From Lachnospiraceae bacterium (GTDB taxonomy: Bacteria > Bacillota > Clostridia > Lachnospirales > Lachnospiraceae), in the NCBI GenBank assembly GCA_024698345.1, contig JAILRH010000203.1:28968-92967 (forward strand): 64,000 bases of DNA. The letters are read 5' to 3'. Below, one piece after another: positions 7,956 through 24,614 of the stretch. Numbering within the stretch: the stretch's first letter is position 1; every line of letters begins with the position of its first letter. The translations under genes and the position numbers were made by a program. Under the pieces are notes generated by a model that worked only from the letters and a program-made list of their open reading frames with translations, was not told the DNA's origin and ran no database searches.

Positions 7956-9252
7956 ATCACGCAGAAAACATATTCCAAAACAGGTTGCAGATATTGTAGT
8001 TGAAAATGAAGACGGATTTGATATTGACTGGGACTCCATTGAAAACAATGTTGAACATGCCAATAGAGTTCGACGCTCAAAGCACAGGCACAGAATGTCT
8101 TCATCTTTACAATCTGATTCCATCGGCTATCCAACTACAGGCAGCAACGGTGACGATAAAGACAATTCTTCAAAATCCGGAACTGTTTTGAATCATTCTG
8201 TTAAGATTGATAATGATAAAAAATCCAAAAAAAAATCCAAAGGAATAACTGCAAAGAAAGTTCTTTTAATTATTCTCGCTGTTATTCTTTCTATAATAAT
8301 TGGTCTGATTATTGCTTTTTCTATTCTGAGAAAGACCGGTATGAAGAAGCTCTTTGATTATAACAATCTGAATATTCAGACTATAGATGATGCTACAACC
8401 GACAACCGTGGAAAAACTATTGTCTACAATGGCAAGACATATGACTTTAATCCTTATGTCACATCTATTCTTTTTATAGGTGTGGACAAAGAAACTTTGG
8501 ATCTTGTTGACAACACTGTTGGTACCGGAGGTCAGGCTGATGCCCTTTATCTGTTAGCATACAACGCAACAAGCGGCAATGTAAAAGTTGTCTCTATTTC
8601 CAGAGATACACTGATAGATGTTAACACCTACACTGTATCCGGAGACTACGCAGGTGTAATGAACACACAACTGTGTCTCTCATATGCTTACGGTGACGGC
8701 AAAGACCTCAGTGCTAAAAATGTTCTCACTTCTGTCAGACGAATGATGTTTAACATTCCGATTAATACTTATTTGGCAATGGATTTGAAAGCAATAAGTA
8801 AAATGAATGACAGTATCGGTGGTGTCAGACTTAACTCTATGATTACAGTTGACGACATTTTCACTGAGGGAGAAGATGTTTTGATAAAAGGTGATATGGC
8901 AGAGAAATATGTAAGATACAGAGATACTTCTGTACTTGATTCAAACAACAACCGTATGCAAAGACAACAACAGTATCTCAATGCATTTTCCGCAAAGCTT
9001 GTTGAAGCCACAAAGAATGATGTTACTACACCTTTGAAGATACTTAATGATTCATCTGATTATCTAATTACAAACTTTGATACTTCAAGAGTTACTTATC
9101 TCGCTTCAAGTATCATTCAGGATTATTCAGGACTCAACATAATAAACATTCCGGGAGATGTTGTTGAAAAAGAAGGTAAGGCTGTTTTCATTCCTGATGA
9201 AACGTCACTCTTTGAAACTCTTCTTGATATTTATTACATCTGCAGAGATTAA
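7939..9252 (+). CDS. LytR-CpsA-Psr (LCP) family cell-wall glycopolymer ligase
   Basis: TM anchor, SILFIGVDKET...GGQADALYLLAYN...KVVSISRDTLIDV..., NRMQRQQQYLNAF; LCP motifs; 17-nt overlap with the sortase gene. Confidence 0.9.
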   Translation: MSEQNKSRRKHIPKQVADIVVENEDGFDIDWDSIENNVEHANRVRRSKHRHRMSSSLQSDSIGYPTTGSNGDDKDNSSKSGTVLNHSVKIDNDKKSKKKSKGITAKKVLLIILAVILSIIIGLIIAFSILRKTGMKKLFDYNNLNIQTIDDATTDNRGKTIVYNGKTYDFNPYVTSILFIGVDKETLDLVDNTVGTGGQADALYLLAYNATSGNVKVVSISRDTLIDVNTYTVSGDYAGVMNTQLCLSYAYGDGKDLSAKNVLTSVRRMMFNIPINTYLAMDLKAISKMNDSIGGVRLNSMITVDDIFTEGEDVLIKGDMAEKYVRYRDTSVLDSNNNRMQRQQQYLNAFSAKLVEATKNDVTTPLKILNDSSDYLITNFDTSRVTYLASSIIQDYSGLNIINIPGDVVEKEGKAVFIPDETSLFETLLDIYYICRD

Positions 9253-18776: not shown

Positions 18777-19322
18777 TCAACTATACAAATTACCAAAAAA
18801 TGCCGCTGTAACTTTCAAGATTTTTTCCTCAAAATCATATTTTTCTTCATCCTTTTGGTAACTGATTAACCCCACAGTGCCAATCACATCTCCACGACTC
18901 AAAATCGGATAAATAATCTGACTTTTATCCGTCAAGTCTTCACCCTCATAGACAAAAATCTTTTGTCCTTTATTATCTGAGGTATTGATAATCTTTCTCG
19001 CCTCCATAGCATTCTCCAGCTGTCGGCTGACGATTCTGTCCTCATATTCTGTTTTGCGCCTTCCTTCAGAAGCTATAATTCGCTCTCTGTCGCTTATTAT
19101 GACAGTCTTTGCAGTAATTTCCGCTATGGTCTTTGCAAATGATTTTGCATAATTACTCAGTTCCCCCATAGGCGAATACTTTTTCAGAACTATTTCGCCG
19201 TCCCTTGAAGTATATATCTCGATGGGGTCTCCCTCTCTGATATGATAATTCTTTCTGATTTCTTTCGGGATTACAATCCTGCCAAGTTTATCTACAGCTC
19301 TGATAACTCCTGTTGCTTTCAT
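18777..19322 (-). CDS. spoVT: Stage V sporulation protein T-like AbrB/GAF regulator
   Basis: MKATGVIRAVDKLGRIVIPKEIRKNYHIREGDPIEIYT (AbrB SpoVT domain) plus C-terminal GAF-like region. Confidence 0.92.
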   Translation of the reverse strand: MKATGVIRAVDKLGRIVIPKEIRKNYHIREGDPIEIYTSRDGEIVLKKYSPMGELSNYAKSFAKTIAEITAKTVIISDRERIIASEGRRKTEYEDRIVSRQLENAMEARKIINTSDNKGQKIFVYEGEDLTDKSQIIYPILSRGDVIGTVGLISYQKDEEKYDFEEKILKVTAAFFGNLYS

Positions 19323-19396: not shown

Positions 19397-19609
19397 TTAT
19401 TCTGCACAAGCCATGGCAACTTTTGTTTTTATATATCTTCCATTTTTTACTCTCTCATCTTTTGGTTTCTTTGTGTTTGCCGGAATAGCCCACATATTAC
19501 CAAACTTAACCGCTCCTTTAATACGTCCCTGGAGACACAGTGTGTTGATTCGTCTCTCACTGATTCCCCACAACTCAGACATTTCTTTTAATGTTTTAAA
19601 TTCACCCAT
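19397..19609 (-). CDS. Small HTH (MerR/excisionase-like) DNA-binding protein
   Basis: MGEFKTLKEMSELWGISERRINTLCLQGRIKGAVKFGNMWAIPANTKKPKDERVKNGRYIK; RBS ggagg at 19616-19620. Confidence 0.8.
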   Translation of the reverse strand: MGEFKTLKEMSELWGISERRINTLCLQGRIKGAVKFGNMWAIPANTKKPKDERVKNGRYIKTKVAMACAE

Positions 19610-19693: not shown

Positions 19694-19783
19694 TTAGCAA
19701 TGCAGTAATTCAAGGTTTATTTCTGTCGGATTGCATAATTTAGTTTTACAACTCAACCATAGCGGGTTTTGTTTTTCACTCAT
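19694..19783 (-). CDS. 29-aa small ORF downstream of the c-di-GMP riboswitch
   Basis: Own translation MSEKQNPLWLSCKTKLCNPTEINLELLHC; AGGGG SD-like sequence 5 nt upstream of ATG. Confidence 0.5.
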   Translation of the reverse strand: MSEKQNPLWLSCKTKLCNPTEINLELLHC

Positions 19784-19836
19784 AATACCCCTAATAATTT
19801 TCATATCAACCTATCCTAAACTTGAAATAAAAAAGA

Positions 19837-19869
19837 AAAAGCACTGCAGCTGGTACTACAATGCTTAAT
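19837..19869 (-). terminator. Terminator/expression platform of the c-di-GMP riboswitch
   Basis: AAGCATTGTAG-TACCAG-CTGCAGTGCTT stem (11 bp with G-U pairs) followed by TTTCTTTTTTATTTC on the minus strand. Confidence 0.8.
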
Positions 19870-19940
19870 GCATGCAACTGGCTGACATTTTAAAGTCCCT
19901 ATAGCTTTGCGTCATTGCCTTTCGACAATTTTGCCTTTTT
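19870..19940 (-). promoter_or_regulatory. Cyclic-di-GMP-I (GEMM) riboswitch aptamer
   Basis: Minus strand GGCAAAATTGTC-GAAA-GGCAATGACGCAAAGCTATAGGGACTTTAAAATGTCAGCCAGTTGC; P2 with GAAA tetraloop, GACGCAAAGC core, GCTATAGGG...AGCCAGTTGC P3 receptor arm; the position equivalent to Vc2 G20 is G. Confidence 0.87.
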
Positions 19941-19960
19941 TTCTATTAAACCTATTGATA

Positions 19961-19989
19961 ATTTTACTCTCATCATAGTACAATGTCAA
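19961..19989 (-). promoter_or_regulatory. Sigma-A type promoter for the riboswitch transcript
   Basis: TTGACA - 17 nt - TAAAAT on the minus strand. Confidence 0.8.
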
Positions 19990-20097
19990 CCTTACCAATT
20001 TTTATCGGTATAAACTAAAAAATCAATACCCATTGTACCATGACGTTATTTGTACTGCAATTTCTTGCATTTTAATTATTTATTCAGGTTTTTATTC

Positions 20098-21228
20098 CTA
20101 TTTTATTTTTACAATTCCACTGTTATTATTAAGTGAATCGATATTATAAAGAACAAGAACATCTTTAACATTTTCGTTCTTCTTTACATAATCACTGATA
20201 TGAGGCATATAATAGCGGGGATCGATTATGTGTATCTTTCTGTAGTGATATACCAAAAACGGTACAAAGCAATTTGCAAAACTGTCTTTGACAATCACAA
20301 GTTCATCCTCGCTCTCCGACTCCTGATTTTCAACAATCTGAAGAGCCTGATTTCCTCCTCCAAATACGCTGTACTTATCTTTTTTCTTCAAAAATGAATA
20401 GTCATAGTAATCATTTGTTTCTTTCTTTTTATCAACATATTCAACTTTGATTCCACTCTCAGGAAATTCAACAGCCTCTATTACATCAGGCTTCATGCTC
20501 TTAATAAGAACTTTAGAATACAAAGTTCCCCTGAAGTCTTTTGCCAATGTCTTCCTTTCAAAATCTTCAATATCTTTTGGCTCAATACCTGTCTGTTTAC
20601 AGTACTGTCTGTATCCTGCATAGGCGCCATAATAATTCCAATGATGATCCAGATTATAATACAGATTGTGATTGTCTTTTTCATTAAGCAGTTCTTTTAC
20701 TACATCAATGCCATTGCAATTTGTATTATCATAAATCTCGTGAATTATTGCCTGCTCATTTACAATGTCAGGCGCATTTTTAGGAAGTTGGGATGAATAA
20801 ACCGTTGCATTAGTCGGAATTAACATGAGATTAAGTTCTGTTCCTGTACCTTCAAGATTATCACAAAGTCTGTTAATTCTATCTTCAAACACACCTGTTT
20901 GAGGTTCTTCAATATGCTGTATGAGTCTGCCTTTTCCCAGAAAAACATTGTTAAATTCTTTGATTCCCGCAATCTTTTGAACGGAGCATTTAAGTGATAC
21001 CAACTCATCTCTCAGTGGAAAATGATCTGACACGTATTTTTCTACTTCGTCAGAAAAAACTCCCTCTTTAATATTTTTCAAAGTAACAACCGGTACCTTT
21101 TGTAACATTCTGTTTTCATTCTCAGAGAAATCTTTTTTTGGAAGAACTATTATTAAAACCGGTACCAGCAAAATAAGTGCAGCTACTGTAACCGGCACTA
21201 TTTTATTTTGCATTATTTTATTTTGCAT
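20098..21228 (-). CDS. DHHW/AlgJ-AlgX-like SGNH acetyltransferase-associated protein
   Basis: N-terminal TM, FSENENRMLQKVP, NLDHHWNYYGAYAGYRQYC (DHHW motif), VIVKDSFANCFVPFL. Confidence 0.85.
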   Translation of the reverse strand: MQNKIMQNKIVPVTVAALILLVPVLIIVLPKKDFSENENRMLQKVPVVTLKNIKEGVFSDEVEKYVSDHFPLRDELVSLKCSVQKIAGIKEFNNVFLGKGRLIQHIEEPQTGVFEDRINRLCDNLEGTGTELNLMLIPTNATVYSSQLPKNAPDIVNEQAIIHEIYDNTNCNGIDVVKELLNEKDNHNLYYNLDHHWNYYGAYAGYRQYCKQTGIEPKDIEDFERKTLAKDFRGTLYSKVLIKSMKPDVIEAVEFPESGIKVEYVDKKKETNDYYDYSFLKKKDKYSVFGGGNQALQIVENQESESEDELVIVKDSFANCFVPFLVYHYRKIHIIDPRYYMPHISDYVKKNENVKDVLVLYNIDSLNNNSGIVKIK

Positions 21229-21248
21229 AATAACATTCCCTCCTTTTG

Positions 21249-22640
21249 TTAAAATCTGAAATATAAAAACGGATTATAAGACTCACTGATAATCATTGCC
21301 ACTGATATGATGAACAGGCCAATGTAAACAACCGGTGAAATCACCTTAATTGCTTTTTCATATCTGTTACCCGCTTTTTTTATAAGCCATCCTGCTACAG
21401 GCGTACTAAACAGCATTGCCACCACAAAAACAACTTTATACTGTCCAAAAATGAAAAGCGCCTTATCGTCTACAGGATTTGCAAAATTGAACATACCTAC
21501 AACATAACTGAAAATATCCGACACCTTGTCAAATGAGAATATAACCCAGCCAATCATTGCCATGACACATACGTAAATGTGAAGTATAGCTGAAGGTATT
21601 TTCTCCAAAACAGACTTCAAAACATACTTTTCAGTTATAAGAATCACTCCAAAATACACTCCCCACAGCATGAAATTCCACTGTGCACCGTGCCAGAATC
21701 CCGTGAGTGCCCACACTACAAGTATATTGAGAATGTTGCGCCCTACGCTGCATCTGGAGCCTCCAAGAGGTATGAACACGTAATCTCTGAACCAGGTTGT
21801 GAGAGACATATGCCATCTTCTCCAAAATTCAGAAACCGACTTTGCTATATATGGATAATTAAAGTTTTCAGGGAATGTAAATCCAATCATTCTTCCTATT
21901 CCGATTGCCATATCTGAATATCCCGAAAAATCAAAATAAATCTGAAGTGAAAAAGCAAGTATCCCAAGCCATAATGTCAGTGCCGACTGCCCTTTAATTC
22001 CTACGTTTTGAATATCCGTAAATACTGCTCCTACACTGTTTGCAATTAGTACCTTCTTAAACAAGCCGATAAGAAATCTGCGCATTCCGGCTTCAAATGA
22101 GTTAAAGTCAATTGTTCTTTCATGAAGTTCTGCTCCCACAACACTATATCTGACAATAGGACCTGCAATGAGTTGCGGAAACATAGATACATAGGTCATG
22201 AAATCTATAAAATTGTGTTCTGTCTTAACCTTTCCACGATACACATCAATACTGTAGCTCATTGTCTGAAAAGTATAAAAACTGATGCCTATTGGCAAAG
22301 CCAGATTTGGTACAGTTAGTGACGCTCCCGTGACATCATTAAAGGTTGAAATTAATAGAGTTGAATATTTAAAAAATCCAAGCATTGATAGATTTACACA
22401 CACCGATATTACAAGAAATACAATCTTTTTACCGGGAAACTTTTCAATACAAATACCATTCATATAGTCCACAATGGAAGAAAACACCATCAATAGAATG
22501 TAGACAGGTTCTCCCCATGCATAAAAAACAAGGCTAAAAATACAGAGAACTATATTCTTAGCCTTAAATGGTACTATGTAATATAATATGAAAAATATCG
22601 GCAAAAATACAAACATAAATGTCGAACTGCTAAATACCAT
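21249..22640 (-). CDS. MBOAT family O-acyltransferase (AlgI/PatA/DltB-like)
   Basis: MVFSSSTFMFVFLPIFFILYY, QLIAGPIVRY, YFDFSGYSDMAIGIGRMIGF, FWRRWHMSLTTWFRDYVFIPLGG, WHGAQWNF. Confidence 0.95.
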   Translation of the reverse strand: MVFSSSTFMFVFLPIFFILYYIVPFKAKNIVLCIFSLVFYAWGEPVYILLMVFSSIVDYMNGICIEKFPGKKIVFLVISVCVNLSMLGFFKYSTLLISTFNDVTGASLTVPNLALPIGISFYTFQTMSYSIDVYRGKVKTEHNFIDFMTYVSMFPQLIAGPIVRYSVVGAELHERTIDFNSFEAGMRRFLIGLFKKVLIANSVGAVFTDIQNVGIKGQSALTLWLGILAFSLQIYFDFSGYSDMAIGIGRMIGFTFPENFNYPYIAKSVSEFWRRWHMSLTTWFRDYVFIPLGGSRCSVGRNILNILVVWALTGFWHGAQWNFMLWGVYFGVILITEKYVLKSVLEKIPSAILHIYVCVMAMIGWVIFSFDKVSDIFSYVVGMFNFANPVDDKALFIFGQYKVVFVVAMLFSTPVAGWLIKKAGNRYEKAIKVISPVVYIGLFIISVAMIISESYNPFLYFRF

Positions 22641-22652
22641 TATTCTACCTTC

Positions 22653-23264
22653 TTATTTATATGTCTCAATATCATTTTTTGCTTCTTCAGTCTTATTGCA
22701 GATAACAAGATACACAAAATTGTTATCATTTACCACTTCAGCCTTCGTAGTCTTATCATACTCTTCAGGCGCATAATCTTTTGTTGAATCTTTTATGCTG
22801 TCAAGAACTGTATTAAGTGCTGTTTCTATTCTTGATGCTGCCGCATTATCCTTTGCTCTGAATAATGCAAGAACATCCGCAGACGGTGAAACTGTTCCCT
22901 GATAGAATGCATACTCTGTAGCATCATTTACGTCAACACCATAATAATCCATCAAATCTTCTTCATCCAGGCTGTATGTATCTGAAAAATAGCCTGCCGC
23001 AAATAGTTTGTCACAGATATCTGATATCTTCAAACTCTCTTTTGGCTCTGTTGTCTCTTCTATAGTTGTTTCTTCTGCTGTAGTTTCTTCTGCTGTTGTT
23101 TCTTCTGCTGTAGTTTCTGTATCTTCATTTGTATTCTCTGTAACTTTTGTTGTGCTATTTGATTCCTTATTATCTGAATTATTGCAACCGGTAAAAGAGA
23201 TTGCCGAAATCAGCATAACAGTTGACAATCCTAATGCAATTACTGATAATCCTCTTTTTCTCAT
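22653..23264 (-). CDS. Lipoprotein with TAEETTAEETT linker and DUF4358-like domain
   Basis: Lipobox ISFTGC; Thr/Glu linker; C-terminal domain resembling DUF4358, encoded next to the MBOAT gene. Confidence 0.75.
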   Translation of the reverse strand: MRKRGLSVIALGLSTVMLISAISFTGCNNSDNKESNSTTKVTENTNEDTETTAEETTAEETTAEETTIEETTEPKESLKISDICDKLFAAGYFSDTYSLDEEDLMDYYGVDVNDATEYAFYQGTVSPSADVLALFRAKDNAAASRIETALNTVLDSIKDSTKDYAPEEYDKTTKAEVVNDNNFVYLVICNKTEEAKNDIETYK

Positions 23265-23279
23265 TTTCTTTTTCTCCCT

Positions 23280-24614
23280 TTAGTGTTTTTTATTCCACGC
23301 ATAATTTCTCAGAACTTTGTCCCATATTGAATAAGCAGATATCTGCTGATGTATAAAAGAATCGGAGCAATACTGTGATTTCAAATAACCGTCACTTGTT
23401 GAAACATAGGATGTTATATCAATGTACTCACAATCCGACTTTTCACAATATGATCTCATTAAATCATTTAATTTTTTTAGATTCTTTGCAAGAACCTCAC
23501 TTCCTTCGTGTTCCTTCACGGGATAGGTCGTACTCATTATATAAATCTGCACATCAGGGCAATTCTTTTTTATTCTGTCGATTAATTTCAGATACTTTTT
23601 GTAGGTACCTTTTGGATCTTTTGTGTTGTAGACATCATTTATTCCGAAAAACAAAAATACTTTTTTAGCGCCCACTGTCTGTGCCAATTTTTCCGGAGCC
23701 ATATGCTGTCCCTTGTAAAGTGGATGAAACTTTGAATCACTCTTCAATGCTTCTGTCAGAGAATAACTGACAACCCCGTCAACTTTTGCTCCATCAAGAT
23801 ACCCTTTGTTCTTTGATTTCATATAAATTCCAAGACCTGATAATACAGAATCCCCGAAAAAGACAGAATCCTTAAAGAATCCATCTGTATCCTTGTACGA
23901 ACCGTTTATTATACTATTTGAATTTTTGACCTTACATTGTTTTGCATTCGACCAGTCACTGTAATACTTCTTTTTGTTCTTTGATTTGTATGTTCTGATT
24001 CTTACATAATAGGTCTTTTTGGATTTGAGTTCATATAACACTTTGTCTGAAGAATCATTTCCTTTAACATTTACTGTTTTTGCATGCTTGAACTTCTTAT
24101 TATCACTGTACTGTATATCATATCCGGTAACTCCATCACCTTTTTTCCATTTTACTATTGCAGAAAATGAATCAACGGCATTTACCTTTTTCAACTCTAC
24201 ATTTGTAATAACATTCTCCAGAGTATTGCTGTACTGCCCATATACAGTCTTTCCGTCTGAGTTCTTGTAACCTCTGACTTTTACTTTATATACTTTTCCT
24301 AATTTGAGTTTATCAATCCGAAACTGAGTATCACGGCCCGAAGACACTTTTTTGAACTTCTTTTTTCCGTTTCCTTTAACCCAGATTTCAAATCCGTCAC
24401 AATTGTCCTTATTCTCCCACACAATGACAGATCTGTCTGTTTTTGAATTCACCTGTAATATAGACGGGGTACTGACCTGAGGTGTAATAGCCAAAGTTGT
24501 TACTCCCTCTGCCGTAGTCTCCCCTTCTGCTTTAACTGAAATATCATTATTAAGCATTCCGCTTACCGAGATGCTTAGCAAAAGTACTGCAAATAATCGA
24601 TTTTTAGTGTTCAT
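23280..24614 (-). CDS. Secreted SGNH/GDSL hydrolase with N-terminal fibronectin type III-like domains
   Basis: Signal peptide; repeated KVYKVKVRGYKNSDGK/KTYYVRIRTYKSKNKKK FN3-like; VFFGDSVLSGLG; VFLFFGINDVYN; DSFIHQQ. Confidence 0.83.
   Translation of the reverse strand: MNTKNRLFAVLLLSISVSGMLNNDISVKAEGETTAEGVTTLAITPQVSTPSILQVNSKTDRSVIVWENKDNCDGFEIWVKGNGKKKFKKVSSGRDTQFRIDKLKLGKVYKVKVRGYKNSDGKTVYGQYSNTLENVITNVELKKVNAVDSFSAIVKWKKGDGVTGYDIQYSDNKKFKHAKTVNVKGNDSSDKVLYELKSKKTYYVRIRTYKSKNKKKYYSDWSNAKQCKVKNSNSIINGSYKDTDGFFKDSVFFGDSVLSGLGIYMKSKNKGYLDGAKVDGVVSYSLTEALKSDSKFHPLYKGQHMAPEKLAQTVGAKKVFLFFGINDVYNTKDPKGTYKKYLKLIDRIKKNCPDVQIYIMSTTYPVKEHEGSEVLAKNLKKLNDLMRSYCEKSDCEYIDITSYVSTSDGYLKSQYCSDSFIHQQISAYSIWDKVLRNYAWNKKH

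Follow-up and report, generated by a model that had tools for sequence, protein, structure and literature searches.

Which gene does a c-di-GMP-I riboswitch serve when it is followed by a 29-aa open reading frame (ORF), a small helix-turn-helix (HTH) gene, and spoVT? The question is raised by a 64-kb stretch of Lachnospiraceae DNA (hereafter the window), in which an earlier note, made from the letters alone, had pointed out these elements on the minus strand. In the best explanation of the locus as a whole, which we hold to be probable, a c-di-GMP-I riboswitch would act at the level of transcription, with the 70-aa excisionase (Xis)/BldC-like HTH gene as its main target.

The aptamer (19870–19945, minus strand) matched the covariance model RF01051 completely, from model position 1 to 87, with 63.2 bits, above the gathering score of 35, and an E value of 5.2e-10, and is the sole non-tRNA Rfam match within the window. 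The class is therefore a known one, RF01051, and the features listed earlier, namely a P2 closed by GAAA, the GACGCAAAGC core, and the GCTATAGGG...AGCCAGTTGC arm, were all found. The orthologous aptamers in two congeners (G001 and G002) scored 62.1 and 60.5 bits. An A at the equivalent of Vc2 G20 is the signature of GEMM-Ib, the 3',3'-cGAMP type. In the RF01051 alignment of the window aptamer, G occupies model position 11, which we take to be the G20 equivalent, and the GEMM-Ib (cGAMP) identity was rejected because this base is G rather than A. The window genome itself (G000, 3.7 Mb) contains two RF01051 aptamers together with nine GGDEF and six EAL domain matches, indicating that metabolism of the ligand is present. 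The preference for c-di-GMP over cGAMP, as first proposed, agrees with both the base and these domains, and c-di-GMP is the more likely ligand, with binding presumed from family membership.

The expression platform 3' of the aptamer consists of an intrinsic terminator stem-loop (19839–19866, minus strand; shuffle z −3.97), conserved in G001 and G002, and a T-tract, TTTCTTTTTT, at 19838–19829 following the stem. The hairpin and T-tract had been foreseen correctly, but the stem comprises 12 pairs, not 11. Judged from its sequence, the RNA is a genuine c-di-GMP-I riboswitch with a terminator platform.

The polarity of the switch was approached by folding. For transcripts ending before the 3' arm of the terminator, forcing the aptamer to form cost about 2 kcal/mol relative to the ligand-free fold in each of the three species. 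In the ligand-free folds of G000 and G002, the terminator 5' arm paired with the P3 5' strand of the aptamer. In the full transcript, the energy model let the terminator win with or without the aptamer, which leaves kinetic control as the only way to switch. The antiterminator pairings of lowest energy differed among G000, G001, and G002, and were not found at the other HTH-linked loci inspected by eye. Most class I switches of C. difficile are OFF switches (PMC6200980, PMC7699646), and on the strength of the folding and this precedent an OFF switch is the somewhat favored polarity. An ON switch, to which we give a smaller though appreciable chance, would operate through a c-di-GMP-stabilized P1 that captures the initial bases of the terminator 5' arm (AUUAAG and AAGCAUUG overlap), with read-through into the HTH gene. 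The P1 3' strand (UUUAAU/AUUAAG) indeed abuts or overlaps the terminator by 1–3 nt in G000 and G001, and Cdi-1-1, a class I switch of C. difficile, precedes a gene that rises with c-di-GMP (PMC6200980). However, the overlap costs few pairs at the stem base of the 12-bp terminator, which persists in aptamer-forced folds, and P1 is as weak as had been supposed, with only about six A/U-rich pairs drawable by eye in the window and hardly any drawing possible in G002.

The 29-aa ORF (19694–19783, minus strand) exists as described, with AGGGG upstream, but is 36 aa long when read from another in-frame ATG, at 19804. Its proposed role as a gene or target did not survive the comparison with the orthologous loci of the two congeners, where the frame is not kept while the HTH gene is. 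In the alignment of G000, G001, and G002, the leader between the terminator and the HTH gene contains many gaps that are not multiples of three. A stretch QNPLWLSxKTKLC is readable in G001, but the frame there has 17 codons, begins with GTG, and differs in start, N-terminus, C-terminus, and stop; just a 9-codon ORF stands at this position in G002. The sole Pfam match of the 29-aa ORF was Integrin_b_cyt (E 0.21), judged to be chance. That the riboswitch controls a functional leader peptide or micropeptide is accordingly improbable, even though the 13 codons shared by G000 and G001 changed mostly synonymously, AGGGG lies 5' of the ATG, and small proteins follow class I switches in C. difficile (PMC6200980); the shared stretch leaves a small chance of a translated leader. 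At the eight aptamer-HTH loci outside the spoVT position (seven in other genera and a second one in the same genome, see below), the HTH gene comes straight after the terminator without an intervening peptide ORF. The micropeptide was rejected as the riboswitch target on the three-species alignment, and the 29-aa ORF is probably not a gene and belongs to a variable leader. ORFs in riboswitch leaders should be checked in relatives before they are called peptides.

Both genes announced further downstream, the excisionase-like HTH gene (19397–19609, start ATG 19609) and spoVT (18777–19322, start 19322; SpoVT_C E 4e-30), were found on the minus strand. Between G000 and G001, 69 of the 70 HTH residues are identical at a dS of 0.48 and a dN/dS of 0.012, showing that purifying selection on the gene is strong. 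Since the HTH gene is conserved while the short ORF varies, the former is probably the target of the c-di-GMP riboswitch. Pfam HTH_17 (PF12728) gave the window protein 23.3 bits (E 8e-5), below the cut-off of 27, whereas the aptamer-linked relatives in G146 and G155 exceeded it with 28.6 and 32.6 bits. An AlphaFold model (mean pLDDT 71) had the Xis proteins of lambda, Pukovnik, and Tn916 as well as BldC among its best Foldseek matches, with weak E values of 0.1–1 and high probability, so that the protein is best called Xis/BldC-like and winged-HTH on its predicted fold. Unlike Xis, it adjoins spoVT instead of an element end, and no integrase was recognised by eye among the surrounding ORFs. 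The same HTH domain also occurs within open frames of about 300–650 codons in several genera.

To what extent the pairing recurs was examined in 397 Lachnospiraceae genomes, with two follow-up searches added; RF01051 was found in 135 of them and an HTH relative at E ≤ 1e-12 in 142. Counting a locus as linked when an aptamer and an HTH relative share a strand and the aptamer lies upstream by at most 400 nt, we obtained 11 loci in seven genera (G000:C3, which is the window, G000:C72, G001:C45, G002:C19, G006:C5, G064:C50, G146:C7, G155:C54, G200:C11, G327:C7, and G327:C43), gathered, as was the operator pattern described below, post hoc, once the pattern had been noticed. About 0.02 would be expected by chance, an order-of-magnitude estimate from hand counts of about 117 HTH genes and about 220 aptamers in 80 genomes. 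The seven linked loci in other genera are all above the RF01051 gathering score; among the best unlinked HTH relatives, none of 20 loci had an upstream aptamer that reached it. On a tree built from 46 HTH proteins, four label changes sufficed for the linked ones, against 9.3 after shuffling (0 of 500 shuffles as low). They are thus clustered without forming one clade, which makes repeated gain, or loss, likely. The remark that a micropeptide/HTH target is unusual therefore needs correction, as the aptamer-HTH pairing recurs and C. difficile already offers examples of small ORFs behind class I switches. No report of a c-di-GMP riboswitch paired with an excisionase/HTH gene was found in the open-licence literature searched, and the HTH family is apparently an undescribed recurrent target of a known riboswitch class.

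Some members of this set invite the thought that the aptamer is a decaying relic of a mobile element that no longer regulates. Some HTH-linked aptamers lie near mobile genes, such as a serine recombinase upstream at G327:C7 (read from the translated sequence alone), and the second HTH copy of the window genome (G000:C72) is broken by an in-frame TAA and a frameshift. In addition, G102:C10 (L094, HTH 1686–1504, minus strand), one of the 20 unlinked loci, carries an aptamer-like remnant, visible by eye, that has lost the 5' part of P2 and is flanked by an intact promoter and a terminator-like hairpin; the remnant gave no RF01051 match even at E 10, and the HTH is sister to an aptamer-linked copy in the tree. 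Decay is nevertheless very improbable for the window, as its genus keeps the aptamer and terminator far beyond synonymous sites: the aptamer is nearly identical across the three species despite the divergence at synonymous sites (dS 0.48) and the indels in the leader.

The order of promoter, aptamer, terminator, HTH gene, spoVT, and an HU-like gene is the same in G000, G001 (L023), and G002 (L025). No terminator was found between the HTH gene and spoVT, so that read-through is possible, and c-di-GMP inhibits sporulation in C. difficile (PMC8653836). It could hence be asked whether spoVT is the gene that the riboswitch mainly serves, which would link c-di-GMP to late sporulation and make the HTH gene a passenger. 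We consider this unlikely, because the aptamer-HTH pair is not beside spoVT outside the window genus, the HTH gene is under strong selection, and the three-species alignment revealed a conserved block, GTATA-N16-(GC/GG)ATAATAA, just 5' of spoVT, which resembles a promoter and may be spoVT's own; no sigma factor is claimed for it. In C. difficile, sporulation genes are apparently unaffected by any riboswitch (PMC8653836). With its linkage confined to one genus, spoVT was rejected as the main target; for that genus, a link between c-di-GMP and sporulation through spoVT is a testable possibility.

Returning to the HTH gene as the probable target, its promoter offers a second layer of control. The sigma-A-type TTGACA-N17-TAAAAT claimed from the outset is present at 19961–19989 on the minus strand, directly 5' of the aptamer, and agrees with the consensus at 11 of 12 positions. 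Its spacer element is common to 36 other HTH-gene promoters. These 37 distinct promoters, aptamer-linked or not and picked by their hexamers alone, follow the pattern TTGAYWTTRTTCS-N7-GNN-TATAAT, in which spacer position 6 is C in 37 of 37 and position 15 is G in 89%. At other promoter-like sites of the fetched loci, the corresponding values were 18% and 24%, biased downwards since sites having both C6 and G15 were left out of this comparison set. The window promoter keeps the C and G and deviates elsewhere from the family consensus. The symmetry of C6 and G15 fits an operator within the promoter, which suggests that HTH-gene promoters carry a spacer operator and that the HTH protein autoregulates initiation in addition to c-di-GMP-gated elongation; its binding to the candidate operator in its own promoter is what we infer from conservation. 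With such an element common to the family, autoregulation and possibly a regulon can be tested directly.

Further candidate sites were sought around and beyond the promoter. The segment CATTGTACTATGATG (19985–19971), inside the HTH promoter, has an inverted near-copy, CGTCATGGTACAATG, at 20031–20045 (13 of 15 positions). The pair also occurs in G001, and the near-copy was not found in G002; the two are possible, weakly indicated paired operators, such a repeat alone not being rare in AT-rich DNA. The family promoter pattern matched once within the 64-kb window, at the HTH promoter with one mismatch, and three times in the genome with zero to one mismatch, two of these matches being HTH genes and the third (C139) lying 5' of a secreted enzyme-like gene. 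At up to two mismatches, 13 matches stood against six for a reversed control pattern, and no HTH regulon was drawn for the genome. The distance from the −10 box to the HTH start is about 30–160 nt in unlinked genes (mostly below 80) and 137–366 nt in linked ones, consistent with the insertion of an aptamer-terminator unit into an existing HTH promoter region.

The neighbors of the other linked loci are varied. At G000:C72 (L086), the second aptamer of the window genome (8941–8865, minus strand) is followed by ORFs at 8563–3320 on the same strand, and a profile search placed three dynamin-family GTPase genes after the HTH gene, possibly a c-di-GMP-controlled dynamin or defence-like module. Translated sequence alone reads as a polysaccharide-type operon at G155, an ABC exporter at G146, and a WYL-type regulator at G064 and G327:C43. 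The aptamers of G155:C54 (L121:7354–7438) and G327:C43 (L126:1250–1325) have A at the G20 equivalent, the GEMM-Ib signature, and their ligand could differ from c-di-GMP. Between the HTH gene of G155 (L121, 7034) and the next, polysaccharide-type operon lies TTGACAGTTGACCGTTATAGGAATAAAAT, a further promoter that has the spacer element of the HTH family; it is a candidate HTH target site, hinting that the HTH protein also controls its neighbor operon.

These observations can be arranged into a working pathway. A sigma-A promoter whose operator is recognized by a DNA-binding protein, in the simplest case the HTH protein itself, would start the transcript, and the nascent aptamer would bind c-di-GMP as expected of its family. 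Without ligand, the terminator 5' arm would pair with upstream aptamer sequence and RNA polymerase would read through; with ligand, the folded aptamer would free this arm, the terminator would form, and HTH expression would presumably fall. The leader from the terminator to the HTH gene, the 29-aa ORF included, would be mostly unconstrained sequence, and spoVT would probably depend on its own promoter, with read-through at most. The HTH protein would then control its own promoter and probably neighboring or unlinked genes as well.

Compared with known systems, the window shares with RF01051 riboswitches the full-length match, the G at the G20 equivalent, the terminator platform, and the directly upstream promoter, and differs in its target, a small Xis/BldC-like HTH gene rather than structural genes for motility, adhesion, or EPS. 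In Vibrio, a class I c-di-GMP riboswitch stands upstream of the regulator gene tfoX, likewise a relay of c-di-GMP through a regulator, whose family differs from that of the window HTH. In C. difficile, cmrRST relays c-di-GMP through a regulator gene too, yet with a class II switch and another regulator family (PMC11477304). Class I switches precede small ORFs in that species, among them Cdi-1-8, Cdi-1-9, and Cdi-1-11, which are OFF switches (PMC6200980, PMC11477304); their ORFs encode hypothetical proteins of about 58 aa, a size taken from listed coordinates, and resemble the window in their position after a class I aptamer. The HTH protein is thereby a candidate c-di-GMP relay in commensal Lachnospiraceae, whose c-di-GMP outputs are little known. 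A broader and more speculative proposal, which we put forward tentatively as less likely to hold than to fail, is a reusable two-layer Lachnospiraceae cassette: an autoregulated Xis/BldC-like HTH gene with a conserved spacer operator in its promoter, having acquired a c-di-GMP-I terminator switch by insertion on more than one occasion, would relay c-di-GMP to the adjacent module, be it polysaccharide, exporter, dynamin-like GTPases, or, in the window genus, sporulation via spoVT.

Next to the riboswitch in the window, the minus-strand genes at 20098–24614 encode a DHHW/AlgX-like protein, an MBOAT acyltransferase, a DUF4358 protein, and an fn3-GDSL hydrolase, likely a surface-polymer acylation cluster.
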